Of a DNA stretch of 37,978 nucleotides, positions 227 to 37,808 are shown piece by piece (positions within the stretch are counted from its first letter, which is position 1; each line of letters begins with the position of its first letter). The DNA comes from Prochloraceae cyanobacterium. Lineage in GTDB: Bacteria > Cyanobacteriota > Cyanobacteriia > Cyanobacteriales > JASJDA01. The stretch lies in the NCBI GenBank assembly GCA_030065755.1, contig JASJDA010000035.1, positions 1 to 37,978 on the forward strand. Direction: 5' to 3'. Below the pieces are notes generated by a model. That model made no database searches, was not told the origin of the DNA, and saw nothing but the letters and a program-made list of their open reading frames with translations. A program made the position numbers and the translations under genes.

Positions 227-1966
227 ATGAACAATCTTCGTTCTCTAACCCGTTTAAATCTAAGTAAAGCTATCTTCGTTCCTTTGTTGCCATTATTGTT
301 AGTGCTAGGTGCTTGTGAGAATCGCTCTAGCCAAAACCAAAATAACAATAACCTGCAAGGAGTTGAAGTTAAATTTTTAGTTGGTAGTAATTTAGGTGAA
401 TTTTGTCACAGGATAGCTACAAAACTCAATTCAACTCGAGCGAAACTTAATAACGGGCAAACTTTTTATCTAACTTGCGAAGCGAAAGGAAGTGGAGATG
501 TAATTAATACGGCGATCGATTTGGCTCAAAGGTATCAAGCGGGAAACATCCCTGCCGATGCGCCAGAATTTCCCACTCTCTTATCAGTAGATGGGGAAAT
601 TTATCATTCCCAGTTAATTTTTCAAATGAATAGAGTCTTTGCAGGACAAAGTTACATTCCACAAATTACTGACTCTCCTCTAATCGCTCACAGTCCCATG
701 GTCTTTATGACATCTGCGGAGCTAGCAGATACTTTAAACAAATTAGACGATCCTTTTACAGCCTTAGTCAAATTTAATAATTTCAGTCAAATCGATCGCT
801 CAGCGCAGTCAATACCTATTCGCTACGCACATACTGCACCGACTCGATCGAATTCTGGCTTACAAACTTTGGTTGCTCAATATGCTTCTGTATCTGGAAA
901 AGCACCAGAACAAATAACGGTAGCGGACGTACAAAAATACCAGCAGCCAATTCAACAAATTGAAAGCAAAATAACTCGCTATGGCGTTTCTACTACTTCT
1001 CTAGGTAAGTCCATGGTCAAAAATGGTCCCTATTGGGCTTCTGTGGTCTCAGTATACGAGTCTGTGGTCATTCGTGCCAATAGCCAAGTAAAACCAGGCG
1101 AAACCCGCTACAAAGCCGTTTATCCCCGAGCTACATTTAGTTCTAATATACGAGCAATTTTACCCAACGCTCCCTGGGTGAGTGCAGCCGAAAAAGAAGC
1201 AGCAGAAAAAGTAATTGAGTTCGCACGCAAACCAGAAAATCAACAAATCGCGATCGAACTGGGGTTGCGACCTGGGATTGCTGGATTGTCTTTGGGAACT
1301 AAATTCTCACCTCAATTTGGCGTGCAAACTAATCCCACCTACGAATCCTATCGCTCTCCCCAACCAGAAGTAGTAGACGCAATGCTTAAAAGTTGGCAGG
1401 AGTTTACCAAAAAGCCTTCTCAGGTAGCGGTAGTGATTGATGTTTCTGGTTCCATGGAAGGGGAAAAACTAGCAGCAGTACAAAATACTTTGCTCAACTA
1501 CGTTAACAATTTGGGGCCAAAAGAAAGAATAGCATTAATTAAATTTAGCTCGACGATCGAACCTCCAGTTATAGTCGATGGCACTCCCCAAGGACGCAAG
1601 CGCGGCATTGAATTTATCAATAAACTTAAAGCTATAGGAGGAACTAAACTCTACGATAGCGCTCTTTACGCTCGCAATTGGCTGCAACAAAATTTCCGTG
1701 CCGATGCAATTAATGCGGTATTAATTCTCACTGACGGACAAGATTCTGGTTCCAAAATTAATTTACAAGAATTGGAGAAAGAATTGAAAAAGAATATTGT
1801 TTCTTCTGATACTAGAATTGCCTTCTTCACGGTTGGGTATGGCAAAAAAGGCGAATTTAATTCTGAAGTTCTCGAAACAATTGCCGAAATAAATGGTGGT
1901 TATTACAGCCAGGGAAATCCAGAAACTATTTCCGATTTGATGAAAGAATTACAACTAGAGTTTTAA
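227..1966 (+). CDS. Substrate-binding (PBP type 2) and vWA-domain lipoprotein
   Basis: This 579-residue protein has an N-terminal hydrophobic segment ending in lipobox LVLGAC with Cys30, so it is probably an exported lipoprotein. Residues ~45-360 form a periplasmic-binding-protein-like domain with a TRSNSG motif, shared with the protein two genes downstream. Residues ~399-579 form a von Willebrand A domain with an intact MIDAS motif (DVSGSM, Asp405; later LTDGQD). PBP domains bind small solutes and vWA MIDAS domains bind protein partners through a metal ion. I infer a surface sensor or adaptor that couples ligand binding to protein contact. It is first of three tightly spaced genes (gaps 7 and 13 bp). 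No transport permease or ATPase is nearby, which argues against an ordinary ABC importer. The ATG at 227 is the first start before the signal sequence. Confidence 0.85.
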   Translation: MNNLRSLTRLNLSKAIFVPLLPLLLVLGACENRSSQNQNNNNLQGVEVKFLVGSNLGEFCHRIATKLNSTRAKLNNGQTFYLTCEAKGSGDVINTAIDLAQRYQAGNIPADAPEFPTLLSVDGEIYHSQLIFQMNRVFAGQSYIPQITDSPLIAHSPMVFMTSAELADTLNKLDDPFTALVKFNNFSQIDRSAQSIPIRYAHTAPTRSNSGLQTLVAQYASVSGKAPEQITVADVQKYQQPIQQIESKITRYGVSTTSLGKSMVKNGPYWASVVSVYESVVIRANSQVKPGETRYKAVYPRATFSSNIRAILPNAPWVSAAEKEAAEKVIEFARKPENQQIAIELGLRPGIAGLSLGTKFSPQFGVQTNPTYESYRSPQPEVVDAMLKSWQEFTKKPSQVAVVIDVSGSMEGEKLAAVQNTLLNYVNNLGPKERIALIKFSSTIEPPVIVDGTPQGRKRGIEFINKLKAIGGTKLYDSALYARNWLQQNFRADAINAVLILTDGQDSGSKINLQELEKELKKNIVSSDTRIAFFTVGYGKKGEFNSEVLETIAEINGGYYSQGNPETISDLMKELQLEF

Positions 1967-1973
1967 GTTAAAA

Positions 1974-2693
1974 ATGAAACTAGCCAACCCACTTAACTAT
2001 CCCCTAGCTATTTTAGGTGGCAGTATTGTTTTAGTTGTCGGCGTTCGATTTTTTCAAGTATCTAGCTGGATAATCTTGCCAGCAGCAGGAGCGATCGCAA
2101 CTACTGGGGCAATAGTCTTAAAATCCCAAGAATCTCAACAGATAAATTTAGACAATCCTGCATTAGAAGCAGAATTAGAAACAGTAAAACAGCAAGCTAA
2201 ACTGTTAGGGAAAAAAGCAGAAACTCTGCGCGCCGAATCGGAAAAAATGCTGACTTCTTCCAGACAATTAGAACTACTAACAGCAGTTCAATATGCTTGC
2301 GATCGCGCCTTAGAATTACCCGTCAAAATTGACGAACTATCAAAACGCTTCCACGGTTCGGATTCTTTATTATCAGTAGAAGAACTGCAGCAACAATTAA
2401 GAGAAGCACGAGCTAAACTAACAAATAGTACGGGAGTTGCTCGCCAACAAATCCAGCAGTTAACAGCAATTTTAGAAAACAATATTAAGCTAGCAAAAGA
2501 AGGACAGGACGCTCGTCAAGCACAAATTATCTCTCTCTCTACTGTGGTGAATAATTCTGCTGGTGTATTGCAGCAATTACAAAACAAATTGCGTACTTCT
2601 AACTTAGATAACTCTCAAGAAATTCAAGAATTGCTAATTTTGAGTGAAGAATTAAAGAGTATGCAAGAAAACGCGGAATTGTTGATTTCTTAA
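1974..2693 (+). CDS. Membrane-anchored coiled-coil protein, function unknown
   Basis: The 239-residue product has two adjacent hydrophobic segments at its N terminus (~8-26 and ~32-48). The rest is almost entirely charged, Leu/Glu/Gln-rich helix, with likely coiled coils at ~60-100 and ~130-235. I do not recognise a catalytic motif. It starts 7 bp after the PBP-vWA gene and 13 bp before a second PBP gene, so it is almost certainly co-transcribed and probably acts with them at the cytoplasmic membrane as a scaffold or signal relay. That role is inferred from position and topology only. Confidence 0.75.
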   Translation: MKLANPLNYPLAILGGSIVLVVGVRFFQVSSWIILPAAGAIATTGAIVLKSQESQQINLDNPALEAELETVKQQAKLLGKKAETLRAESEKMLTSSRQLELLTAVQYACDRALELPVKIDELSKRFHGSDSLLSVEELQQQLREARAKLTNSTGVARQQIQQLTAILENNIKLAKEGQDARQAQIISLSTVVNNSAGVLQQLQNKLRTSNLDNSQEIQELLILSEELKSMQENAELLIS

Positions 2694-2706
2694 GAGGTAA
2701 AAAAAC

Positions 2707-3816
2707 ATGAATATCAAACCAACCAAAATAATAACTTCTCTAGGAATTATTTTAGCGGCATTAGGTATAAGTTACGCCCCAATACCAGGATTTAAAAAAA
2801 CAATTTTTGTTGTTAGCGGTTCCGAACTTCAAGAACCACTGAAAAAATTAGAAGCTAGATTTGAAGAACAAAATAAAAATATCAATCTGGAAATCAAAAT
2901 TCAAGGTTCTCAAGATATGGTCAATAACTATATTGACCGTAAAAATGATTTTCAACCCACCGTCCTAATTCCAGCTAATGGGGAAAAATTAACAGAATTG
3001 CGATCGCGCTGGCTAGCACAAAACCAAAATGAAGAACCTTTTTACGACCAGCCTACACCGATCGCTAAAACTATGTTAGTCGCGATCGCTTGGCCCGAGC
3101 GAAGTAAAATTCTCTTTCCCCAAGGTCGCTTTCAATGGAAAACAGTTGAAATGGCAATGGAAAAGCGCAGTTGGGGGGCTATTGGGGGAAAATCTAATTG
3201 GGGTAGCTTTGACTTTATTGCTACCGACCCCACCCGTTCTAATAGCGGTCAGTTAACGGTTAGTCTGTGGAGTCGATCGCGTCTGGGAGGCAAAAATATA
3301 GACCCTACCAGTTTAAATAATCCTGGAATTGTATCTTTATTTTCTTTGATTAAGCGATCTATCTATCAGCCACCTCGCTCTACCGATATTCTTTTAGAAG
3401 AGTTTATCACCCGCGGCCCCAATGATGCTGACGTTGCTACCGTCTATGAGAGTATAGCTCTCTATCGCTGGTCGCAAGCCAAAATTACTCAAGGAAAACC
3501 TTACCAAATCTATTATCTCAACCCTACTATTGAAACCGTCTCCACTGCTGCTATTGTCCGTAGAGACGTGGATAAAAGTACTGCTGAAGCAGCCAGAAAA
3601 TTTTTAGATTTTCTTAATTCTCCTCAGCAACAAGAAGTATTTGTAGAATTTGGTTTTCGACCAGTAGTTTCTGGTATCGACCTGCGATCGGTTCCGAAAA
3701 GTCCTTGGGGACAAAATATTCCTGGCGCTCAAATTAACCCGTCTATAAAAACAGTAGAATCTCCTGATGCTAGAGTTACTGCTGAAATTCAGCGATTGTG
3801 GCAAAGAGTCAAATAA
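2707..3816 (+). CDS. Extracytoplasmic substrate-binding protein (PBP type 2)
   Basis: The 369-residue protein has an N-terminal signal or anchor helix (~8-26) and no lipobox Cys. A full PBP-type-2 fold follows, with TDPTRSNSG near residue 176, matching the TRSNSG loop of the PBP-vWA protein at the head of this operon. The two appear to be paralogous binding modules, one with and one without vWA. An AGAGG ribosome-binding site lies just before the ATG. It is the last gene of the three-gene unit. The ligand is unknown; no permease or ABC ATPase accompanies it. Confidence 0.8.
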   Translation: MNIKPTKIITSLGIILAALGISYAPIPGFKKTIFVVSGSELQEPLKKLEARFEEQNKNINLEIKIQGSQDMVNNYIDRKNDFQPTVLIPANGEKLTELRSRWLAQNQNEEPFYDQPTPIAKTMLVAIAWPERSKILFPQGRFQWKTVEMAMEKRSWGAIGGKSNWGSFDFIATDPTRSNSGQLTVSLWSRSRLGGKNIDPTSLNNPGIVSLFSLIKRSIYQPPRSTDILLEEFITRGPNDADVATVYESIALYRWSQAKITQGKPYQIYYLNPTIETVSTAAIVRRDVDKSTAEAARKFLDFLNSPQQQEVFVEFGFRPVVSGIDLRSVPKSPWGQNIPGAQINPSIKTVESPDARVTAEIQRLWQRVK

Positions 3817-5857: not shown

Positions 5858-6460
5858 GTGATGAAAGCAAAGATAAATCGCCAATTTTGTCTAGCTAGTC
5901 GTCCTGTTGGCGAGATTAAAGAAAACGACTTTGAATATCGAGAACAGCCAATTCCCGTTCCCAAAGAAGGACAAATTTTAGTGCGGATCATTTATCTTTC
6001 TCTAGATCCGACTAATCGAATTTGGATGAGCGATATGCCCCAATATATGCCTCCTGTGGAAATAGGAGAAGTCATGCGCGGGATAGTTCTCGGTCGGGCA
6101 GAAGTATCGAAAACTCCCAAGTGGCGAGAAGGGGATTTAGTTTCTGGTTTATTGGGATGGCAAGATTATATGGATTAATTGACATCGGACGACCACAACC
6201 AGGAGAAACTGTAGTAGTTTCAGCAGCCTCTGGCGCAGTAGGGTCGATGGTAGGGCAAATTGCTCGCATTAAAAAATGTCGCGTTGTCGGAATTACGAGT
6301 TCGGCAGAAAAATGTCGTTGGCTAACAGAAGAATTAGGTTTTGACGCAGCGATCGATTATAAAACTACCGAGTTAAAAACTGCTCTGGCTGCTGCTTGTC
6401 CCCAAGGAATTGATATCTATTTTGAGAATGTCGGTGGCAAAATTCTCGATACAGTTTTAA
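5858..6460 (+). pseudogene. NADP-dependent MDR oxidoreductase, internally deleted and truncated
   Basis: The first frame (5858-6178) encodes the N-terminal ~104 residues of a medium-chain dehydrogenase/reductase of the zinc-independent CurA / leukotriene B4 dehydrogenase type (LSLDPTNRIWM) and stops after LLGWQDY. From ~6160 another frame continues the same protein at GLIDIGRPQPGE, with the nucleotide-binding region VVVSAASGAVGS and ELGFDAAIDYKT, up to FENVGGKILDTVL. About 30 residues normally present between the halves are missing and the frame is shifted. At ~6461 it runs into a TnpB remnant and the C-terminal third is lost. Not functional. Confidence 0.85.
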
Positions 6461-6469
6461 CTAGACCTC

Positions 6470-7072
6470 TTGCAAAAGTATCAATTGCTGCGAGGTAGAT
6501 TATCTAAGAAGAAGAAACGACACAAAAATTACGAAAAAGCCAGGCTCAAAGTAGAAAAGATGCACAATCACATTGCTTGGACAAGAAAGGATTATCAGTT
6601 CAAGTTAGCTCACAAGCTTTGCGACATGGCAGACACCATTTTTCTAGAAGATATAGACTTTAGAACGATGGCAAAAGGTTTTTTAGGCAAAAACACTCTT
6701 GATGCTGCTTTCGGTCAATTTCGCACTATTCTCAAATATGTAGCTTGGAGTATAGGTAAATATGTCGCCGAAGTAGACCATCGGGGAACTTCTCAAACCT
6801 GTCCTAATTGTCGTATCGAAGTCAGGAAAGAGCTAAAAGATAGATGGCATTCTTGCCCAGAATGTAAGTATGAGGTAGACCGCGATGTAGCCTCAGCTCA
6901 GGAAATTTGTAATCGCGGAATAGAAATGCTATGTACCCAGGGACTCTGGGGGAAGGAAGAAATTGGCTATCAAGTCGGGCTGTCGGGTGCTATGTGCATA
7001 GACAAGTGGCGTAGGGTAGCAATGCCTAACTGTGAGGTTGGGAAGCCCACGTCTATATCGCGTAGCGATTAG
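6470..7072 (+). pseudogene. tnpB: TnpB C-terminal fragment
   Basis: About 200 residues of a RuvC-like RNA-guided nuclease. Visible parts are the helix region with LSKKKK and NYEKARLKVEKMHNHIAW, the second catalytic acid in FLEDIDF (Glu60 counting from the TTG at 6470), a four-Cys zinc ribbon (CPNC at 111-114, CPEC at 129-132), and the last acidic motif DRDVASAQ. The wedge domain and the first RuvC Asp are missing, so nuclease activity is not expected. The fragment has no proper start codon. A retained role of its 3' RNA cannot be excluded. Confidence 0.85.
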
Positions 7073-9117: not shown

Positions 9118-11637
9118 GTGAACCCAGACAACCCCATGAATCAACAGCGATCGCTCAGCCTAAATTTTCCTCAAAACAGAGACAGTTTTTCTGGTAGAGA
9201 CAGTTACCGCCACCGCCAAATCCTGCTAAATAAGGTAAAAAACTACTGGATCGAAGGAGTACTCGAAAAATCCCTTGCCACGGTCGCAACCATAGAACTC
9301 GGCTTAGAAGAAAGACTCGATGCGGTAGAAGGTCCATTTAGGAAAGCTTGGGAAACAACCTCTCACGCCAGAAAAAAATTGGCGAAGAGAATGAGAGTAA
9401 TAGACAAATTCGATCGAATGGGAGAAGGGCGATCGCTGTTAATTTTAGGAGAACCAGGTTCCGGTAAAACCACAACCCTACTAGAAGTTGCTCGCGAATT
9501 AATCGCTAGAGCCCAACAAGACATTACCTATAAAATACCAGTTGTTTTAAATTTATCCTCTTTTTTCGAGATCTCTGAGGAGATAAAACCAGAGCAGGTT
9601 ATTTATCGGTGGATAGTTGAAGAACTCGAGAGCCAGTACCAAGTACCCAAAAATATAAGTCAAACTTGGATCGAACAACAACAACTTTTGTTACTGCTCG
9701 ATGGCTTAGATGAGGTAGTTGAAGAAGAGCGTCAATTGTGCGTCAAAGCTCTCAACGAGTTCGGACGGGTGTGGGGACGCACGGAGACGATCGTCTGCTC
9801 TCGCACCAGAGAATATGAAGTCCTCTCAGAACGTCTCAGGTTACAAGGGGCAATTTGCTTACAACCTCTGACAGCAGAGCAAGTCGATCGCTACCTGAGT
9901 GCAGCAATTTACTTACAACCTGAGATTCCAGAGGAAGTAGATGGCTATTTCGATCGAGCAGAACAACAGATGACAGCGCTCATAAATCTGCTTGAAAAAG
10001 ATCCGCTGCTGCAAGAATTGACAAAAACTCCCCTAATGCTCAACATTATCGTTCTTGCTTATCAGGGGATGTCAGCGGAAGATCTGAGCGAGCAAGAAGG
10101 AAAATTTACATCTATAGAACAAACTCGCAAACAAATCTTTAATGCTTATATTCAAAGAATGTTTTTTCGGCGCGGTTCGGTTCAGCCATACTCTCAAAAG
10201 CAATGTTTGCAATGGTTGAGCGAACTAGCCTTGAGGATGTCTCGCGAGTCGCAAACAGTATTTTTAATCGAACGCATTCAACCGAGTTGGCTGCAAATAA
10301 ACCTAAAAAATAAATTCCGACTACCTTGGCAAAAAAGCAGAAAACAAAAAACTAAAAGTTATCAAGCCTATGCTACGGGAGTACAACTACTTACAGGCTC
10401 GATTTGGGGACTTATTTGCCTTTTCTCCTTTTTATTAGCAGGATCTCCGAGTAACTTCGTAATTGGGGGAATATTAGCTGGAATATTTGGCGCAGCATTG
10501 ACCAAAATAGAGCCGATAAAACCAGTAGAAAACCTCAAATGGTCTTGGATCGAAGTACAAAAATGGCTTCCGGTAGGATTACTTTTGGGTACAGGTGGTT
10601 TTTTAAGTGCTGGAATTTCTTGGGGACTGTTCCTAGGGTTGAGTGGGGTGACAATTGCTGGCTTAATTGAAGAAGAAGTTCCCGACAAGACTATTCCCAA
10701 TCAAGGTATTTGGCAGTCAGCTAAAAAAGCAGTGAGTTTTGGCGTTGGCGGTTCAATTCTTTGTTTGGTCGGAGGAGCGGGGTTAGAAGGTTCGATCGCC
10801 CTACCTTACGTTTTAAGTATGTCAATTTTTGGCTCTGGAATTGTCGGCTTAATTCTGGGACTGCTTAAAGGAGGTCAGACTTGTATTCAACACTCAGTAG
10901 TGCGACTGATGCTCTATCTCGACGGCGCTATTCCTTGGAATTATTCCCGTTTCTTGAACTATGCAGCAGAGCGCAATTTACTGCAAAAAGTTGGCGGAGG
11001 CTATATTTTTATTCATCGCCTCCTACAAGAGCATTTTGTCGCTTTAGCTAGGGAAAAGTACCAGCAAAATATCGAAATTACTACTACTGATGCTGAATCT
11101 TACCTCGAACGGGCTAATACTAAAGCTAGTCTGGGGGATGCTAAAGGGGCGATCGTAGATTACGATAAAGCGATCGCTATCAATAGGCATTTAGCCCACG
11201 CCTATGCTGGTAGAAGTATAGCTCGCTATATGCTCGGAGATTATCAAGGGTTACTCGACGATTACTATCAAACCTACGATCTGAATCCACAACTGGCTCA
11301 GAGCATTAGTTATACTGCTGTCAATTCTACCGAGTTACCCCAGCAAGAAGCAACAACAGAAATAGTTAGCTCAAATAACCCCAAATACTTGCTGACTCTT
11401 CTCAATGACGATAGCAACAGTTTCGATCTGGTTTGCAGGTGTTTGATGAAATATATTCCTGACATGAGTCTCGATCGCGCTCGAAAACTCGCCGAAAAAG
11501 TACATACTGAAGGTCAAGCAGTAATTTGGTCGGGTACGGAACACTTAGCCGAGGTGTATCGCACTCAACTAATTCAAGCTGGTTTATCTCTAGACTTGTG
11601 TTGGCCCGACGTTGAAGAAATGCAAGAGAATAAATAA
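9118..11637 (+). CDS. NACHT NTPase with membrane segments, TPRs and a C-terminal ClpS-like domain
   Basis: The 839-residue multidomain protein has a ~100-residue helical N-terminal region, then a NACHT STAND ATPase: Walker A GEPGSGKTT (111-119), Walker B LLLLDGLDEV (191-200), sensor TIVCSRTREY (224-233), and helical and winged-helix parts to ~400. Residues ~421-583 hold about five hydrophobic helices. FLNYAAERNLLQKVGG and IHRLLQEHFVAL (612-643) are typical NACHT C-flank sequence. Two TPR-like repeats follow (660-730). Residues ~757-832 align with ClpS: LNDD (Asn763-Asp765) and KVHTEG (His796) occupy the N-degron pocket positions, and AEVYRTQL matches the ClpS C-helix. STAND NTPases are signal-activated switches; ClpS recognises N-degrons and feeds Clp proteases. 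The fusion suggests regulated delivery to Clp at a membrane, which is inference. GTG at 9118 is used; ATG at 9136 is equally possible. Confidence 0.88.
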   Translation: MNPDNPMNQQRSLSLNFPQNRDSFSGRDSYRHRQILLNKVKNYWIEGVLEKSLATVATIELGLEERLDAVEGPFRKAWETTSHARKKLAKRMRVIDKFDRMGEGRSLLILGEPGSGKTTTLLEVARELIARAQQDITYKIPVVLNLSSFFEISEEIKPEQVIYRWIVEELESQYQVPKNISQTWIEQQQLLLLLDGLDEVVEEERQLCVKALNEFGRVWGRTETIVCSRTREYEVLSERLRLQGAICLQPLTAEQVDRYLSAAIYLQPEIPEEVDGYFDRAEQQMTALINLLEKDPLLQELTKTPLMLNIIVLAYQGMSAEDLSEQEGKFTSIEQTRKQIFNAYIQRMFFRRGSVQPYSQKQCLQWLSELALRMSRESQTVFLIERIQPSWLQINLKNKFRLPWQKSRKQKTKSYQAYATGVQLLTGSIWGLICLFSFLLAGSPSNFVIGGILAGIFGAALTKIEPIKPVENLKWSWIEVQKWLPVGLLLGTGGFLSAGISWGLFLGLSGVTIAGLIEEEVPDKTIPNQGIWQSAKKAVSFGVGGSILCLVGGAGLEGSIALPYVLSMSIFGSGIVGLILGLLKGGQTCIQHSVVRLMLYLDGAIPWNYSRFLNYAAERNLLQKVGGGYIFIHRLLQEHFVALAREKYQQNIEITTTDAESYLERANTKASLGDAKGAIVDYDKAIAINRHLAHAYAGRSIARYMLGDYQGLLDDYYQTYDLNPQLAQSISYTAVNSTELPQQEATTEIVSSNNPKYLLTLLNDDSNSFDLVCRCLMKYIPDMSLDRARKLAEKVHTEGQAVIWSGTEHLAEVYRTQLIQAGLSLDLCWPDVEEMQENK

Positions 11638-16136: not shown

Positions 16137-18254
16137 CTACGAAATACTCTTCGTCGCCACACGCACTAGTCGTAACCCGACGCTGAGATTTTTATTATAT
16201 GGGTTGTTGCTACGATATGCAGAACGACAATTAAAAGGTAAATGATTCCAAGAACCGCCCCGTCTTACTTTAGGATTATTCTTGTTTCTTGAATACCAAG
16301 CCCTACCATCCCTTGGCGCTCCCTCATAGTTGTCGTGCCAATCATCCTGACACCACTCCCAAACATTGCCGTGCATATCATATAAGCCAAAAGCATTGGG
16401 AGGAAAACTTCCTACTATCGTGGTTTCCATTCGATACTTGCTTTTGGGTTCTCTGGCATAACTATAATTGCCATTATAGTTGGCTAGCTCGCTGGTAATA
16501 GTTTCGCCAAAATGAAACGGAGTAGTAGTCCCAGCACGGCAAGCATATTCCCACTCGGCTTCGCTAGGCAGTCTATATTCTCTTTGCGTTTCTTTCGATA
16601 AGCGTTTACAAAATTCAACTGCATCCTCCCAGGAAATATTCTCTATAGGACGATTATCGCCTTTGAACCTGGATGGATCCCAATTTAGATCGCGATCGAC
16701 TTTGGGTTGGTTAGCAACTGCTTTCCACTGCGCTTGAGTCACTTGAAACTTACTCATAAAGAAAGGCTGAATACTTACTTCGTGTTGCGGTTTTTCCTTT
16801 CTAAATCCACTCCAATTAAATTTTTTAGACAGTTGTTCTATTTCCTCATATTTCGTTCCCATAATAAATTTGCCCCCAGGAATAGCGACCATTTTTAAAA
16901 CAACACCATTGCCCAAATCTTCAGTAAAGTATTCAGTTTGCTTGCTGCTGCGAGCGATTAATTGACCGCTTGCATTTACAGTTAGTAGCTCAAAACTAAA
17001 ATTGTTTAGTTGAGGTTCAGATCTCTTTGTAGACGATCGTTGAGTATCTCGATCGCTAGATTTATTGGGGTCAGGTTCGCTATCTGCAATGGATTGAGCT
17101 TTTGATTTTGTCTTAGATGTCTTTGTAGATGAAATTTGAGTATCTCGATCGAATAAAGTTCCTCCCACAACCGCAATACCTACTCCTGCACCTCCTAAAA
17201 TTGCTAATTTGAGCAACCCCCTGCGTTGTATCAAACCGAATTGAGAAGAAGTTTTTGGTTTTGGTGGAGTCGAAGTTTCTCTTGCAGAGGTTGGACGAGC
17301 AGTTATTGTTGAATAGGAAATAGGGCTAGTTGTTCTTTCGGGGGTTGAGGGGGAACTGGTGTTTTCTTTTTCTGGTATTGGATCTACTCTTACTGTTGTT
17401 GTAAGTCGATCGTTTTGACTCGTAGGGGAAGATTCTTTTAGTTCAAAAACTGCTTCTAATACATCTGACGCTTTTCTATAGCGCTGTTTGACATGGTAAG
17501 CTACCATTGTTTCTAAGATTAACTTCAATTGTGGAGTTACTCTTACCAAATTTGACCACACTAATTCCTCTGTCTCTGGATCTTTTAGCTCGCTTGGAGG
17601 CAATCCTGTTAGTGCTTGAATAGTAACGATACCCACTGCATAAATATCACTAGCGAATTTAGGGTTTCCTAATGCCTGTTCCGACGGCATATAGCCAGGA
17701 GTGCCGATAATTGTTCCTACTCTGGTTTCTCCTGTACTATTAATTACTTCAGTTTGAGCTACTTCTTTGATAGCTCCAAAGTCTATGAGAACTATTTGAG
17801 CGTCCTTTTGACGACGCATTAAGTTGGAAGGTTTGATATCCCGATGTATGTAGTTGTTCTCGTGAAGAAAAGCTAAAGGTTTTAAAATATCTTCTAATAA
17901 TGCGATCGCCTCTAATTCTGATAACTTTTTCCCCCGAATCAATTCTTTGCTTAGATCTTGTCCTTCAATAAATTCTTGAACCAAATACAATTGGCGATCT
18001 TCTTCAAAATAAGCGATTAATGAAGGAATTTGAGGGTGGTTATGACCCAGTTCATCTAAACTTCGAGCTTCTCGTTCAAACAAACCTTTAATAATTCCAA
18101 AGCTTTCTGGGCTACCTACTACTGGTCGCAAATGCTTTACTACGCATCGACGACCAAAATATTGAAGATCTTCTGCTAAATAGGTTTGACCAAAGCTCCC
18201 CCCACCTAGAGGTTTGATAATTTGAAAGCGACCGCCTACAGTATCAGTATTCAT
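16137..18254 (-). CDS. Membrane Ser/Thr protein kinase with C-terminal SUMF1 (FGE-like) domain
   Basis: The 705-residue protein has a Hanks-type kinase at 10-272: Gly loop LGGGSFGQTYLA (16-27), Lys40, HRDIKPSN (137-144), DFG (158-160) and [10 protein letters not shown] (184-193). A Ser/Thr/Pro-rich linker and one membrane helix (~347-367, preceded by QRRGLLK) follow. A second linker leads to a formylglycine-generating-enzyme/SUMF1 module (~450-700: MVAIPGGKFIMG, EYRLPSEAEWEYACRAG, GLYDMHGNVWEWC, RRGGSWN, GLRLVR). Kinase motifs look complete. In bacteria SUMF1-like domains are usually non-enzymatic or ligand-binding when fused to kinases. The layout suggests kinase inside, SUMF1 outside the membrane. 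It is closely related to the truncated gene at 36654. Confidence 0.92.
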   Translation of the reverse strand: MNTDTVGGRFQIIKPLGGGSFGQTYLAEDLQYFGRRCVVKHLRPVVGSPESFGIIKGLFEREARSLDELGHNHPQIPSLIAYFEEDRQLYLVQEFIEGQDLSKELIRGKKLSELEAIALLEDILKPLAFLHENNYIHRDIKPSNLMRRQKDAQIVLIDFGAIKEVAQTEVINSTGETRVGTIIGTPGYMPSEQALGNPKFASDIYAVGIVTIQALTGLPPSELKDPETEELVWSNLVRVTPQLKLILETMVAYHVKQRYRKASDVLEAVFELKESSPTSQNDRLTTTVRVDPIPEKENTSSPSTPERTTSPISYSTITARPTSARETSTPPKPKTSSQFGLIQRRGLLKLAILGGAGVGIAVVGGTLFDRDTQISSTKTSKTKSKAQSIADSEPDPNKSSDRDTQRSSTKRSEPQLNNFSFELLTVNASGQLIARSSKQTEYFTEDLGNGVVLKMVAIPGGKFIMGTKYEEIEQLSKKFNWSGFRKEKPQHEVSIQPFFMSKFQVTQAQWKAVANQPKVDRDLNWDPSRFKGDNRPIENISWEDAVEFCKRLSKETQREYRLPSEAEWEYACRAGTTTPFHFGETITSELANYNGNYSYAREPKSKYRMETTIVGSFPPNAFGLYDMHGNVWEWCQDDWHDNYEGAPRDGRAWYSRNKNNPKVRRGGSWNHLPFNCRSAYRSNNPYNKNLSVGLRLVRVATKSIS

Positions 18255-28045: not shown

Positions 28046-28903
28046 CTAAATTCTATAGAGAAACTTTCGATCGTTTGACGTTACTAGCTCTTTCTCGATA
28101 ACCTCAGTGTCAACAGTCAAAAATTTCTCTACCGTATTGACTATTTTAGGAATTTCTAGGGGTTTGGAAATAAAATCTGTTGCTCCAACTATCCTAGCGC
28201 GAGCTCGATCTGTATAACCGTCCCTACTTGTAAGCAGAACCACTGGCGTATCTTTCAACTTAGAAATCTGACGCAGTTTTTGGCATACTTCTAAACCATT
28301 ACATATAGGCATCTCTATATCGAGGAAAATCAGATCGGGTTTAGATGAGATCATCATGGTTATAGCTTGCAAAGGCTCTTGAATGCCAAGATAACCGTAA
28401 CCTTCTCGGCAAATAATATTTTTCATAGTTTTGACAATTTGCCGACTATCATCAATACAAGCTACTAGTCCTTGAGGTTGAGTATCGTATCTCGGTAATA
28501 CTCTTGAAGCTTTATGAGAAAAAGTGTTAAACGGCGATTTTGTCAAGCTAGAGGTTGAAAATAGATTCTGTTGCTTCGGGAAGTGACTGGGTGAATTGGC
28601 CAATTGGCGATCGCCTTCATACTTTCCTAATTCAGTGTAAGCACTTATTTTGCTGCCGCAGGTAGCGCAGGTCAATTCCAATTCTTTGAGTATTTGATGT
28701 ACGTCCCTGTAAGGTCTGTAGTTAATTTCCTGTAACACTCCTGCATTTTTTATTATCTGACGCAAGACGAAAATCATTGGTTGACGAGAAGCATTTACAA
28801 CCTTCCGCTTGCCTTCACGAATCATCTCTCGATCGCAAATTTGCCAATTTCTATAAAATTCTGCTCTTATTCTGTGTTTTTGTTCTTCAGATAAAATTCC
28901 CAC
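28046..28903 (-). CDS. CheY-type response regulator with unknown N-terminal domain (PatA/PixG-like)
   Basis: Of 285 residues, ~145-270 form a receiver: acidic pair CIDDSR (Asp151-152), phospho-acceptor Asp195 in IFLDIEMP, Thr in VVLLTSRDG, and Lys in FISKPLE. The ~85-residue N-terminal part (EFYRNWQICDREMIREGKRK) has a CATCG pair and no family I can name; a Ser/Pro-rich linker joins the two. Receivers of this sequence type occur in cyanobacterial PixG/PatA regulators of motility and patterning, but the PATAN domain is not recognisable here. Likely phosphorylated by an unlinked kinase. No DNA-binding domain. Confidence 0.82.
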   Translation of the reverse strand: MGILSEEQKHRIRAEFYRNWQICDREMIREGKRKVVNASRQPMIFVLRQIIKNAGVLQEINYRPYRDVHQILKELELTCATCGSKISAYTELGKYEGDRQLANSPSHFPKQQNLFSTSSLTKSPFNTFSHKASRVLPRYDTQPQGLVACIDDSRQIVKTMKNIICREGYGYLGIQEPLQAITMMISSKPDLIFLDIEMPICNGLEVCQKLRQISKLKDTPVVLLTSRDGYTDRARARIVGATDFISKPLEIPKIVNTVEKFLTVDTEVIEKELVTSNDRKFLYRI

Positions 28904-29367
28904 TTTTTAAATTTCCCAGGCTTTAATTTCTTGTTTTTAAACCCAATAATTTAGTTTTTGTTGCTTTTTTGTTTACTTACATATCACAGATCGCGGCTTT
29001 TTTATAAATATCAATTAATTTCTAGTTTATGAGAAATTGTCATTGTTTCATACAGTAAAATCCACAGATTAACACTCTGAAGAAGCACGCGTCTGAATTC
29101 TTTCTACTGACTAGATTAATATTACATTAAATTTTTGTAAACATTCCAAGGCCCTATTTTGACATCAACTTGAAAAATTAATCCAGAATTGTCGCTCGAA
29201 GTGATCCAGGTCAGTCGGCAGGAATTAAAAACTTTGTAAAATATTAAATGTTTCAGTAAAAATACTTAACTTACATCCCATCCTTAAGTTAAATATATAG
29301 ATACATACAAGTATAAAAATTTGTACATTACACAAAACATATCAAAATATCAAAAGCGCTATCTAGG
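28904..29367. other. Divergent intergenic region
   Basis: About 460 bp separating the minus-strand regulator and the plus-strand CHAT gene; it should hold both promoters. A TTAACTT / AAGTTAA inverted repeat (29266-29272 / 29286-29292) lies ~75 bp before the CHAT start. Its half-site is similar to, but oriented differently from, the direct repeats of cyanobacterial Pho boxes (CTTAACCT). Otherwise nothing recognisable. Confidence 0.4.
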
Positions 29368-31788
29368 ATGAAAAAGTTAGTTGTTCTTAAGTTAAACGGA
29401 AATTTCAGGGAAGGTTTTTTTGTTTCTTTAGAAATTGGACGAGAAGGTAAATATCCCGAGACAGAGCAGACTGGTTATTTGCCTGCTAATACTTCTGTAA
29501 TTGATGCTTACGAAGAGTGGCAATCAATATATAGAGAGCTAGAACATTCTTTTAGACTCAAAGACCGCATAGATAATTCTTTTCAACTGCCTCAAACTCA
29601 AAAATATCATCCTGTAGAACTACACATAGATGACTATATCAAAAAAAGAAAACAAAACTGTACGGACAAAGCCACAGCATTAAAAGAACAACTAAATCAA
29701 TGGCTGGAATCGCGGGGATTTAGACGAATAGACGAGCGTTTAAGGGAAAAATTAAGCTTAGAAGATGAAGTTCGTTTTCTCATTCGCACTACCTCGAGTA
29801 GAGTCAAAAAACTACCTTGGCATCTTTGGAATTTGCTCGAACGTTATTACAGTGCAGAAATTACACTAGCTGGCTTAGAACACGAAAAAGTTGCAAATTT
29901 AAATTTACAATCACCTAAAAAAGTTGTCAAAATACTTGCTGTTTTAGGAAATAGTTCGGGAATCGATCTAGAACCAGATACAAAACAACTTCTCAAACAT
30001 TTACCACAAGCAGATATAACTTTTCTCAAAGAACCCTCACGTCAACAACTTAATAACTACCTCTGGGAGCAATCTTGGGATATTTTATTTTTTGCAGGTC
30101 ACAGTCACACAGAAGGTAAAACAGGTCGAATTCACATCAATCAAACCGAAAGCCTTAGCATCGATGAAATAGGCTCCGCGCTCAAAAAAGCTATTGATAG
30201 TGGATTACAACTAGCTATTTTTAACTCCTGTCAAGGTTTAGGATTGGCACATTATTTACAAAAACTCCATCTTCCTCATACCATTGTGATGCGAGAGCCA
30301 GTTCCCGATCTGGTAGCTCAAAAGTTTTTGAATTATTTTCTGACTTTTTTTGCCAGTGGCAAACCTTTACATTTAGCAGTACGATCGGCCAGAGAAAGGC
30401 TAGAAGGCTTAGAATATCAGTTTCCTTGCGCTAGTTGGCTGCCTACCATCTACCAAAACCCTGCTGTTTTACCCCTAACTTGGTCTGAGTTACTGGGAGA
30501 GAATGCCTCTGCTTCAACTCACCTTCAATCTACCTCCAAAACACTAAAAGAAAATCGCTCCGAAATCCCTAACGAAAAGGTTGTTATTGACACTCCCAAT
30601 ACGATCGCTTCTTCCACTATGAGTTCGAGCAATACTGCTCGAGCGCAATACCCAACTTTACCTAAATCGTCGGAATTAGAGCTGGTAAAAGGTCTCAAAA
30701 ATAGTAGTAAGCAAAAGTATCGTAATTTAACCGTCCTAGGAATTACTACTCTAACTATTACTGGAGCAATCATTTTAGGAACTACAAGGCTGTTCAATTT
30801 TTCCCAGTTTTACTCAAAAGAATCGGAAATTACTACCCCATCTACGTCCTCTCTTCTTCCTAATAAGCAAGTACGAGATGGCTCGATCGCGCTCAAAGAG
30901 AACTATATAGACGTAACTGACATACCTGTAGGACATTTTCGATATGGCGGGAGTACTACTTGGGCTGTAATTAGAGAGAAGGTAGACCCATCGATCGCAT
31001 CTGTCTGGCCGCAGTTTAATTTAGTTTATGCCGAACATCCCCAGATTGCTCCTAGCTCTGGAGTCGGAGTTAAAATGTTGCTTGACGATCAATTGAGTTT
31101 TGCTCAAACCTCTCGTCCCCTCAAGCCATCAGAGTACGAGCAGGCAGAAGCGAAAAGATATACTCTTCAACAAATTCCTGTAGCCATTGATGGCATTGCT
31201 TTTGCTGTTAACCCTTCCTTGAATATTCCTGGTTTAACCATATCTCAACTTAAAGATATTTACACTGGTAAAATTGTTAACTGGAAAGAAGTTGGCGGAC
31301 CAGATCTCGAAATCCTCCCCTTCTCTAAATCTCCTAAGACAAGCGGTACTGCTGAATTTTTTGTCAAAAACATCGTAAAAAGCAAGGAATTTGGCGATTC
31401 AGTCAAAATAGTTACTAATATCACCCAAACCTTGAGAGAAATTTCTGCTAATCGGGGTGCGATCTTTTTTGCTTCTGCTCCAGAAATAGTATACCAGTGT
31501 TCGATTAAACCACTTCCCATTGGCAAGATTGCCGGACAGTATGTTGCTCCCTACGCTGAGCCATTAGTGCCACCATCTCAGTGTCCTTCCCGTCGCAATT
31601 CTATCAACAGCAAAGCTTTCCAACAAGCAAAGTATCCCTTAACTCGCAATCTCTACGTCATTATTAAAGAAAATGGTTCCTTTGAAGAAGAAGCAGGAAG
31701 AGCTTACGTTCAATTGCTTCTAACTGAGGAAGGACAAAAGTCGATCGAAAGTGCTGGTTTTGTTCCTACCCACATTGCTCCCGATTGA
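29368..31788 (+). CDS. CHAT-domain peptidase fused through one TM helix to a PstS-like binding domain
   Basis: The 806-residue protein has three parts. Residues ~1-370 are a helical N region and a CHAT (caspase HetF-associated with TPRs) cysteine peptidase domain: catalytic His245 in FFAGHSHTEG and Cys288 in AIFNSCQGLG, then VPDLVAQKFLNYFL and PTIYQNPAVLPL. A Ser/Thr-rich linker follows, then one hydrophobic helix (~453-476, after basic KQKYR), giving N-in/C-out topology. Residues ~515-806 are a PstS-type binding domain: FRYGGSTTWAVI, SFAQTSRPL, VAIDGIAFAVNP, LSQLKDIYTG-like ISQLKDIYTG, and SGTAEFF. CHAT peptidases act in bacterial death and defence cascades; PstS binds phosphate. I infer a transmembrane receptor that controls a cytoplasmic caspase-like protease by an external ligand. 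Confidence 0.9.
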   Translation: MKKLVVLKLNGNFREGFFVSLEIGREGKYPETEQTGYLPANTSVIDAYEEWQSIYRELEHSFRLKDRIDNSFQLPQTQKYHPVELHIDDYIKKRKQNCTDKATALKEQLNQWLESRGFRRIDERLREKLSLEDEVRFLIRTTSSRVKKLPWHLWNLLERYYSAEITLAGLEHEKVANLNLQSPKKVVKILAVLGNSSGIDLEPDTKQLLKHLPQADITFLKEPSRQQLNNYLWEQSWDILFFAGHSHTEGKTGRIHINQTESLSIDEIGSALKKAIDSGLQLAIFNSCQGLGLAHYLQKLHLPHTIVMREPVPDLVAQKFLNYFLTFFASGKPLHLAVRSARERLEGLEYQFPCASWLPTIYQNPAVLPLTWSELLGENASASTHLQSTSKTLKENRSEIPNEKVVIDTPNTIASSTMSSSNTARAQYPTLPKSSELELVKGLKNSSKQKYRNLTVLGITTLTITGAIILGTTRLFNFSQFYSKESEITTPSTSSLLPNKQVRDGSIALKENYIDVTDIPVGHFRYGGSTTWAVIREKVDPSIASVWPQFNLVYAEHPQIAPSSGVGVKMLLDDQLSFAQTSRPLKPSEYEQAEAKRYTLQQIPVAIDGIAFAVNPSLNIPGLTISQLKDIYTGKIVNWKEVGGPDLEILPFSKSPKTSGTAEFFVKNIVKSKEFGDSVKIVTNITQTLREISANRGAIFFASAPEIVYQCSIKPLPIGKIAGQYVAPYAEPLVPPSQCPSRRNSINSKAFQQAKYPLTRNLYVIIKENGSFEEEAGRAYVQLLLTEEGQKSIESAGFVPTHIAPD

Positions 31789-36653: not shown

Positions 36654-37808
36654 ATGAACAGAAGCATCATAGGTGGTCGTTTCCAGATCGTCAAGCAACT
36701 GGGAAGAGGCAGTTTCGGTGAAACCTATTTAGCAGAAAATATCCAGCAATTTCGCCATCAGTGCGTAGTCAAACAGTTGCGTACTATGGCTGTTAATAAC
36801 AAAGATTTTAAGAAAATCAAAGAGTTGTTTGAAAGAGAAGCTAAAGCACTATACGAACTAGGTCGCCATCACCAACAAATACCCTCTCTGATTGCCTATT
36901 TTGAAGAAGAGGGGCAATTGTATTTGATTCAAGAATTTATCGAAGGACACGATCTCACAAACGAACTGACTCCCAACAACAAATTAAGCGAATCTGAAAC
37001 GCTTGCTCTGCTGGAAAACATCTTAGAACCTCTTGCTTATCTTCACGAGAACAGAGTAATACATCGGGATCTAAAACCTTCTAATTTAATGCGTCGCAAC
37101 GCTGACAGAAAAATATTTCTCATTGATTTTGGTGCGATTAAAGAATTAGCCGTAACCCAAATAATCAATACAATTGGAGAAACCCGAAGCGCAACAATTA
37201 TCGGCACTCCAGGTTATATGCCATCAGAACAAGAAGAAGGACAACCCCATTTTGCTAGCGATGTCTATGCGGTTGGTGTTATTGCCATTCAAGCAATAAC
37301 AGGATTAATGCCACACCAATTCAAGAAAGATCCAAAGACAGGAGAGTTAGTTTGGCAACATAAGGCTTCTATTAGCCGAGAATTTGGCGCACTTTTAGCA
37401 AAAATGGTAAGTTACGATCGTCAAAAGCGCTATTCTAGTGCCATTGAAGCCTTAAAAGCATTGCTACAAATAAGGGAAAGTAACGACTCAGTAAATCAAA
37501 AGAATACATCGAGTTCAAAGTTGAGATTTGAAGTAGTAACCGTAAATGCAAGCGGTAACATAATCGCTCGAAGCGACGCGGAGGCTCAATATTTTACTGA
37601 ATATTTGGGCAATGGTGTTGAAATAGAAATGGTCGCTATTCCTAGGGGGACTTTTATGATGGGGTCTCTCTCAACAGAAAAAGGCAGCAGAGATAATGAA
37701 CGTCCTCATCATAGAGTCACAGTCCAGCCTTTCTTTATAGGCAAGTATCAAGTAACTCAGGCGCAGTGGAAAGCAGTTGCTAATTTAACTAAAGTCGATC
37801 GCCTTTAG
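36654..37808 (+). CDS. Ser/Thr protein kinase with truncated SUMF1 domain
   Basis: 384 residues are open here. The Hanks-type kinase (10-~272) has [12 protein letters not shown], Lys40, HRDLKPSN (137-144), DFG (158-160) and [10 protein letters not shown]. It is close in sequence to the kinase at 16137-18254, but has only a short linker and no membrane helix before the SUMF1 part (from ~312: [21 protein letters not shown]). The SUMF1 domain stops at KVDRL because the DNA then folds back into an inverted copy of the preceding 124 bp. The other strand of that copy continues the expected protein ([15 protein letters not shown]), so the real gene is probably full length and the stop may be an assembly artefact. 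Confidence 0.85.

Follow-up and report, generated by a model that had tools for sequence, protein, structure and literature searches.

The gene at positions 29368-31788 (+) of a 37,978-nucleotide stretch of Prochloraceae cyanobacterium DNA (the whole stretch is hereafter the window) encodes a protein for which the domains, predicted topology, a cysteine pair and conservation lend good support to a single-pass receptor, its caspase-clan protease lying in the cytoplasm and its PstS-type domain outside the cell. We propose, with a probability of roughly 0.5, that it is a receptor-protease of the cyanobacterial EACC2-CHAT family, whose ectodomain may gate CHAT cleavage of a DUF1822/sigma partner and thereby a transcriptional response; the in vivo topology, proteolysis, substrate, sigma release and ligand are all steps that we infer.

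Domain architecture and predicted topology

The open reading frame starts with ATG, contains no internal stop and encodes 806 aa, in which the following features were recognised (dN/dS values are relative to the C357 paralogue in the same genome).

29368..31788, +, stop included: CHAT-TM-PstS-like fusion gene, 806 aa (ORF read, homologous fusions)
29368..29907, +: N-terminal alpha+beta domain, aa 1-180, probable EACC2 (model secondary structure; dN/dS 0.23)
29920..30492, +: CHAT (caspase/separase-like) protease core, aa 185-375 (PF12770, fold matches; dN/dS 0.15)
30100-30102, +: codon of catalytic His245 (H in 24/26 fusions and 42/42 other CHAT ORFs)
30229-30231, +: codon of catalytic Cys288 (C in 26/27 fusions and 42/42 other CHAT ORFs)
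30508..30726, +: cytoplasmic linker, aa 381-453, disordered and weakly constrained (pLDDT <50; dN/dS 0.82)
30727..30783, +: single transmembrane helix, aa 454-472, predicted N-in/C-out (hydropathy, flanking charge)
30910..31785, +: PstS-type ectodomain, aa 515-806 (PF12849, model fold matches; dN/dS 0.26)
31498..31584, +: Cys711...Cys739 pair, probable disulfide (pair in 26/27 fusions and 70/70 other PBP modules)

A preliminary description of this DNA had noted a CHAT domain with a His245/Cys288 dyad, one hydrophobic helix at about 453-476 with a basic N side, and a PstS-type domain at about 515-806, and all three parts were recovered. The Pfam CHAT match (aa 206-345, E 7.5e-11) scored 42.4 bits against a curated cut-off of 24, and His245 and Cys288 are in register with the CHAT dyad columns, which hold H and C in all 42 aligned non-fusion CHAT ORFs; both residues are retained in 24 of the 26 assessable fusions. 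Hydropathy placed the helix at 454-472 (Kyte-Doolittle 1.78, N-side net charge +4), and PBP_like_2 (PF12849) matched aa 524-788 with an E of 1.6e-26. The PstS subfamily profile TIGR02136 (NCBIfam) also matched (E 3.5e-34), its 118 bits being under the curated cut-off of 206.6, and the NCBIfam HetF profile gave a weak partial match at aa 207-295. Pfam searches found no match for aa 1-180 and neither a TPR nor an effector domain in the 806-aa protein.

In the AlphaFold model (mean pLDDT 69.6), the PBP mostly reached 85-98 and the protease half 60-85, with the linkers and helix (358-513) below 50. Strands (E) and helices (H) in aa 1-180 of the model follow the order E3-12, E16-25, E31-33, H42-71, H83-113, H116-128, E135-141, H150-157 and E164-168, and the secondary structure of two models together with Pfam places this alpha+beta domain before CHAT. 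Model aa 1-366 aligned with Csx29 (8eey; Z 17.3, 285 residues) and separase (7nj1; Z 17.5, 289 residues) in VIA-align, so the N-terminal domain also has a counterpart in these proteins. The PBP half aligned with 1twy at Z 26.4 and with phosphate-bound 4gd5 at Z 26.2. A second, weaker model built from two sequences (pLDDT 59.9) has nearly identical secondary structure; it matched SAVED-CHAT at Z 16.2, separase and Csx29 at Z 11.5-12.6, and DdvA (8rot, 8rw5), titled a transmembrane anti-sigma factor in the PDB, at Z 12.0-12.3.

A hydrophobic segment, its N flank mostly positive, lies between the two domains in 27/27 fusions. Cys711 and Cys739 are both present in 26/27 fusions and both gone in the sole exception, and each of the 70 further PBP modules examined has the two; such a pair is what an extracytoplasmic disulfide would be expected to show. 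With many stand-alone PBP homologues the alignment extends through the N-terminal helix of the homologue, giving the fusion the appearance of a soluble protease attached to an entire secreted binding protein. The dN/dS values of the N-terminal, CHAT and PBP regions (0.23, 0.15 and 0.26), compared with 0.69-0.83 for the linkers and helix, support the view that both domains are genuine, conserved units held under purifying selection.

Distribution and gene neighbourhood

Two full-length paralogues in the same genome, C357 (76% identical) and C151 (48% identical), contain the three parts in identical order. For a wider survey, a profile built from ten fusions (A1) was run across the order (391 genomes) and the loci were read back. 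This yielded 27 different fusion ORFs from 23 genomes, and G047 added a copy interrupted by an in-frame TGA, bringing the total to 24/391 genomes from nine families, a lower bound with few candidates scored per genome by the profile search; in four of the 24 the only copy is interrupted or partial. The preliminary description had allowed that two genes might have been joined by a sequencing error, which is ruled out because the same parts occur in the same order in both paralogues and in 24 genomes. The profile search also ruled out that the architecture is unique: single-sequence full-length matches had given three genomes only, and a contig scan with a single sequence as query returned mostly unrelated PBPs. 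No full-length fusion outside the order was found among the matches listed from a phylum-wide sample. Phage records gave PBP matches only and no CHAT relative was found in viral contigs, ruling out phage carriage. Phylogenetic trees of CHAT and of PBP both set the window-genus fusions (group A) apart from the remainder (group B), and a single origin of the two groups was not rejected by AU tests (CHAT p 0.076, PBP p 0.148).

At 12 of the 19 group-B loci, a sigma-like gene, a DUF1822 gene (PF08852, E 1e-57 to 1e-76) and the fusion form a cassette on one strand, with DUF1822 mostly 15-34 bp upstream of the fusion; the cassette is absent from the other seven, some of which are at contig ends. The sigma-like gene matched TIGR02937 in 2/12 members, at E 6e-10 in the best (G047), under the curated cut-off, and weakly elsewhere, and its profile gave sigma-factor matches in the PDB at E 0.3-0.9 only. 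Tandem CHAT-TM-PstS pairs behind a single sigma/DUF1822 pair were observed in G364 C8 (L202, 6002-10250) and G295 C118 (L126, 5836-10500). In public annotation, a Planktothrix plasmid has sigma-70 and DUF1822 genes upstream of a protein that we found to be CHAT-Peripla_BP_6, and plasmid5 of Nostoc sp. HK-01 carries DUF1822 with a CHAT-PstS protein (BBD63582.1) annotated as hypothetical.

Same-strand sigma/DUF1822 neighbours are absent at the window copy and at the other group-A copies (one of them without upstream sequence). The window copy is flanked by response-regulator and histidine-kinase genes on the opposite strand, the nearest upstream gene being the divergent response regulator, and no same-strand ORF of at least 35 aa was found directly upstream (28851-29380). 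A scan around the gene found promoter and terminator sites to be no more numerous than in shuffled sequences. Of the four DUF1822 genes in the source genome, the ones on C151 and C179 lie near genes for CHAT proteins of about 1,560 aa, and at least the CHAT gene near the C151 one has a STAND-type region by its sequence.

Several other genes in the window were recorded. A three-gene cassette at 227-3816 encodes an SBP-VWA protein (579 aa), a coiled membrane protein (239 aa) and an SBP (369 aa); in G027 and G251, group-B fusions have homologues of both the SBP-VWA and the coiled membrane protein within a few kb, and in G286 a homologue of the SBP-VWA protein lies similarly close to a group-B fusion. 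By eye, 16137-18254 (-) and 36654-37808 (+), the latter reaching near the contig end, encode a Ser/Thr kinase with a C-terminal formylglycine-generating/sulfatase-modifying-like region, 9118-11637 (+) a large protein with a P-loop NACHT-like region, a hydrophobic stretch and TPR-like repeats, and 6022-7072 a truncated reductase-like ORF overlapping a TnpB-like fragment.

Relationship to described systems

The preliminary description knew of no system with this architecture, yet the class has been described (PMC8195603; PMC7159879). EACC2-caspase proteins carry exchangeable C-terminal sensors (CHASE2, STAND, kinase and small-molecule-binding domains), including extracellular sensors after a TM segment; ECF sigma and DUF1822 genes accompany EACC2-caspase genes in the 'majority' of TRADD-N-independent neighbourhoods, and autopeptidase activation has been proposed for these systems (Kaur et al. 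2021, PMC8195603). The window protein shares with them a constant N-terminal alpha+beta domain and caspase-clan protease followed, after a TM helix, by a variable C-terminal sensor, and sigma-like and DUF1822 neighbours occur at 12 of the 19 group-B relatives but not around the window copy or its genus relatives. The N-terminal CHAT module (aa 1-380) was also found in 34 other CHAT ORFs with variable C-terminal regions, as in EACC2-caspase systems: CHASE2 in 21 and nSTAND1 in five. The window protein fits this architecture, and we infer its membership from anatomy and the relatives' neighbourhoods rather than from EACC2 sequence. A PstS-type ectodomain is unnamed in the main text of PMC8195603, which speaks of 'several small-molecule-binding domains', and no description of CHAT-TM-PstS was found in searches of an open-access library. 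What seems to be new is a PstS-type sensor in the EACC2-caspase family, the repeated occurrence of this sensor alongside the sigma-DUF1822 cassette and, in the window's genus, the existence of orphan copies and of pseudo-protease copies.

In actinobacterial EACC1 System 4, one protein likewise combines a caspase-superfamily protease, a TM helix and a downstream extracellular periplasmic-binding domain (Kaur et al. 2020, PMC7159879). However, that system is mainly actinobacterial and comprises two genes with a 5' EACC1 gene, and its PBP type is not stated as PstS; EACC1 membership was ruled out, as no 5' gene with the EACC1 single-TM domain lies upstream of the window gene. In the Craspase/CASP set of Csx29 (TPR-CHAT), Csx30 and CASP-sigma (PMC10028731; PMC9729208), the protein cut by Csx29 is Csx30, which inhibits a sigma factor (PMC10028731). 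Both Csx29 and the window protein are CHAT proteases with the same predicted fold over aa 1-366, and genes for relatives of the latter lie with a sigma-like gene and with one for a third protein, a possible substrate, although Csx29 acts in an RNA-guided Cas7-11 complex and not as a membrane receptor, and DUF1822 is likened to Csx30 by its putative role rather than by homology. Membership of type III-E CRISPR Craspase was rejected, since the protein has no TPR match and no Cas7-11-like ORF was seen by eye in the window.

HetF of Anabaena, a CHAT-TM-TPR divisome and heterocyst protein (PMC8406250), is likewise a cyanobacterial CHAT protein anchored in the membrane, by a single predicted TM helix, and its profile gave the weak match above, but it has no PstS domain. 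Cyanobacterial metacaspases with CHASE2 or ANF-receptor domains (PMC2853523) similarly fuse a caspase-clan protease to an extracellular sensor, though the protease is a p20 caspase rather than CHAT and the sensors differ. DdvA, known here by PDB title and fold match alone, resembles the window protein in that it is a membrane protein, part of which matched the modelled protease half, and is linked by its title to a sigma factor, but it is called an anti-sigma factor and not a protease.

Possible mechanism and alternatives

In the proposed mechanism, the PstS-type ectodomain would replace the usual CHASE2 or STAND module on a single-pass EACC2-CHAT protein with its N-terminus inside and C-terminus outside. 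Ligand binding or clustering of the ectodomain would most likely activate the cytoplasmic CHAT cysteine protease, which might then cut a cytoplasmic partner, the DUF1822 protein to judge from the cassette; the cut could alter the associated ECF-like sigma factor and hence transcription. Because the linkers flanking the helix are long and weakly constrained, activation through proximity or oligomerisation is favoured over a rigid relay of the signal. By analogy with Csx29-Csx30, receptor-gated proteolysis acting on a DUF1822/sigma partner is the most economical reading. Speaking against it, the cassette neighbours are missing at the window and other group-A copies and at seven group-B loci, the dyad is wholly or partly lost in 2/5 genus copies, and the sigma match is weak in most members. 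Lacking these neighbours, the window copy would act in trans on partners encoded elsewhere or on another substrate. The preliminary claim of a one-protein receptor-protease is thus borne out in its architecture (domains, predicted topology, cysteine pair and conservation), while novelty, phosphate and cell death do not stand as written; because the relatives' genes adjoin a sigma-like gene and DUF1822, cell death is a less supported outcome than gene regulation. A fuller version, in which the ectodomain gates a separase/Csx29-like protease via one helix, cleavage of DUF1822 frees an ECF sigma as in a membrane counterpart of the Craspase-Csx30-sigma switch, and pseudo-protease paralogues tune the pathway in the genus, is offered tentatively, as possible rather than probable.

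In a ligand-specific version, compatible with the other readings, the PstS domain would inform the protease of the phosphate supply, either by itself or together with an ABC transporter. The PstS fold, with phosphate-bound structures as best matches, and the retained anion-pocket motifs (S529, S564, S582-R583 and (S/G)-G-T at 659-661) are consistent with this idea. However, Ser582 presumably corresponds to Asp56 of E. coli PstS and Lys654 to the pocket Arg (mapped by eye from aligned motifs and the E. coli structure), no Pho-box-like repeat was found within three mismatches in the window, and no transporter genes were recognised among the listed neighbours, most of which are without annotation. 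The phosphate reading is therefore doubtful, and phosphate as the ligand is only a guess.

Instead of controlling a sigma factor, CHAT might respond to ligand binding by cleaving either the linker of its own chain or an adjacent receptor, with fragment release or death/immunity as the outcome. The autopeptidase activation proposed for EACC2 systems (Kaur et al. 2021), the long disordered linkers flanking the helix and the window copy's lack of sigma/DUF1822 neighbours would agree with such autoproteolysis, as would the fusion of the same TM-PstS module to caspase p20 (Peptidase_C14, E 7.6e-19) in the genus, where the module is found joined to protein kinases and to TPR repeats as well. Two Peptidase_C14-TM-PstS proteins are encoded in G001 (C331 and C31; L130 and L131), the catalytic His of L130 being Tyr in L131. 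On the other hand, most group-B relatives have the sigma-like gene and DUF1822 directly upstream, and the window protein has neither an effector domain nor a PADLOC defence match, which makes autoproteolysis without sigma control rather unlikely.

A non-proteolytic role, in which the CHAT half is a protein-binding module (an anti-sigma factor or scaffold, as in a DdvA-like membrane protein) whose binding, not its catalysis, is controlled by the PstS domain, is less likely again. In its favour, the second model matched DdvA and the dyad is gone in two genus paralogues with the rest of the fusion intact (His to Arg in C151, both residues in G001 C281); these copies are, from their sequences, likely pseudo-proteases and could have such a role. 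Against it, the dyad is invariant in the non-fusion CHAT ORFs and kept in nearly all assessable fusions, and the CHAT core is under the strongest purifying selection. That the genus has merely expanded its paralogues and the orphan copies are decaying without present function is very improbable: one genome has several TM-PstS fusions with differing N-termini, two paralogues have lost the dyad, and fusions are interrupted or partial in G047, G315, G373 and G133, but the window ORF is intact and both of its domains are constrained relative to the paralogue.

The proposed receptor-gated proteolysis would tie a widespread cyanobacterial protease family to a concrete type of signal and a likely, though putative, substrate. 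If DUF1822 is cleaved and sigma freed, CHAT-sigma signalling would reach past CRISPR to environmental sensing, and the numerous CHASE2 and STAND versions could be read as a single exchangeable receptor platform.
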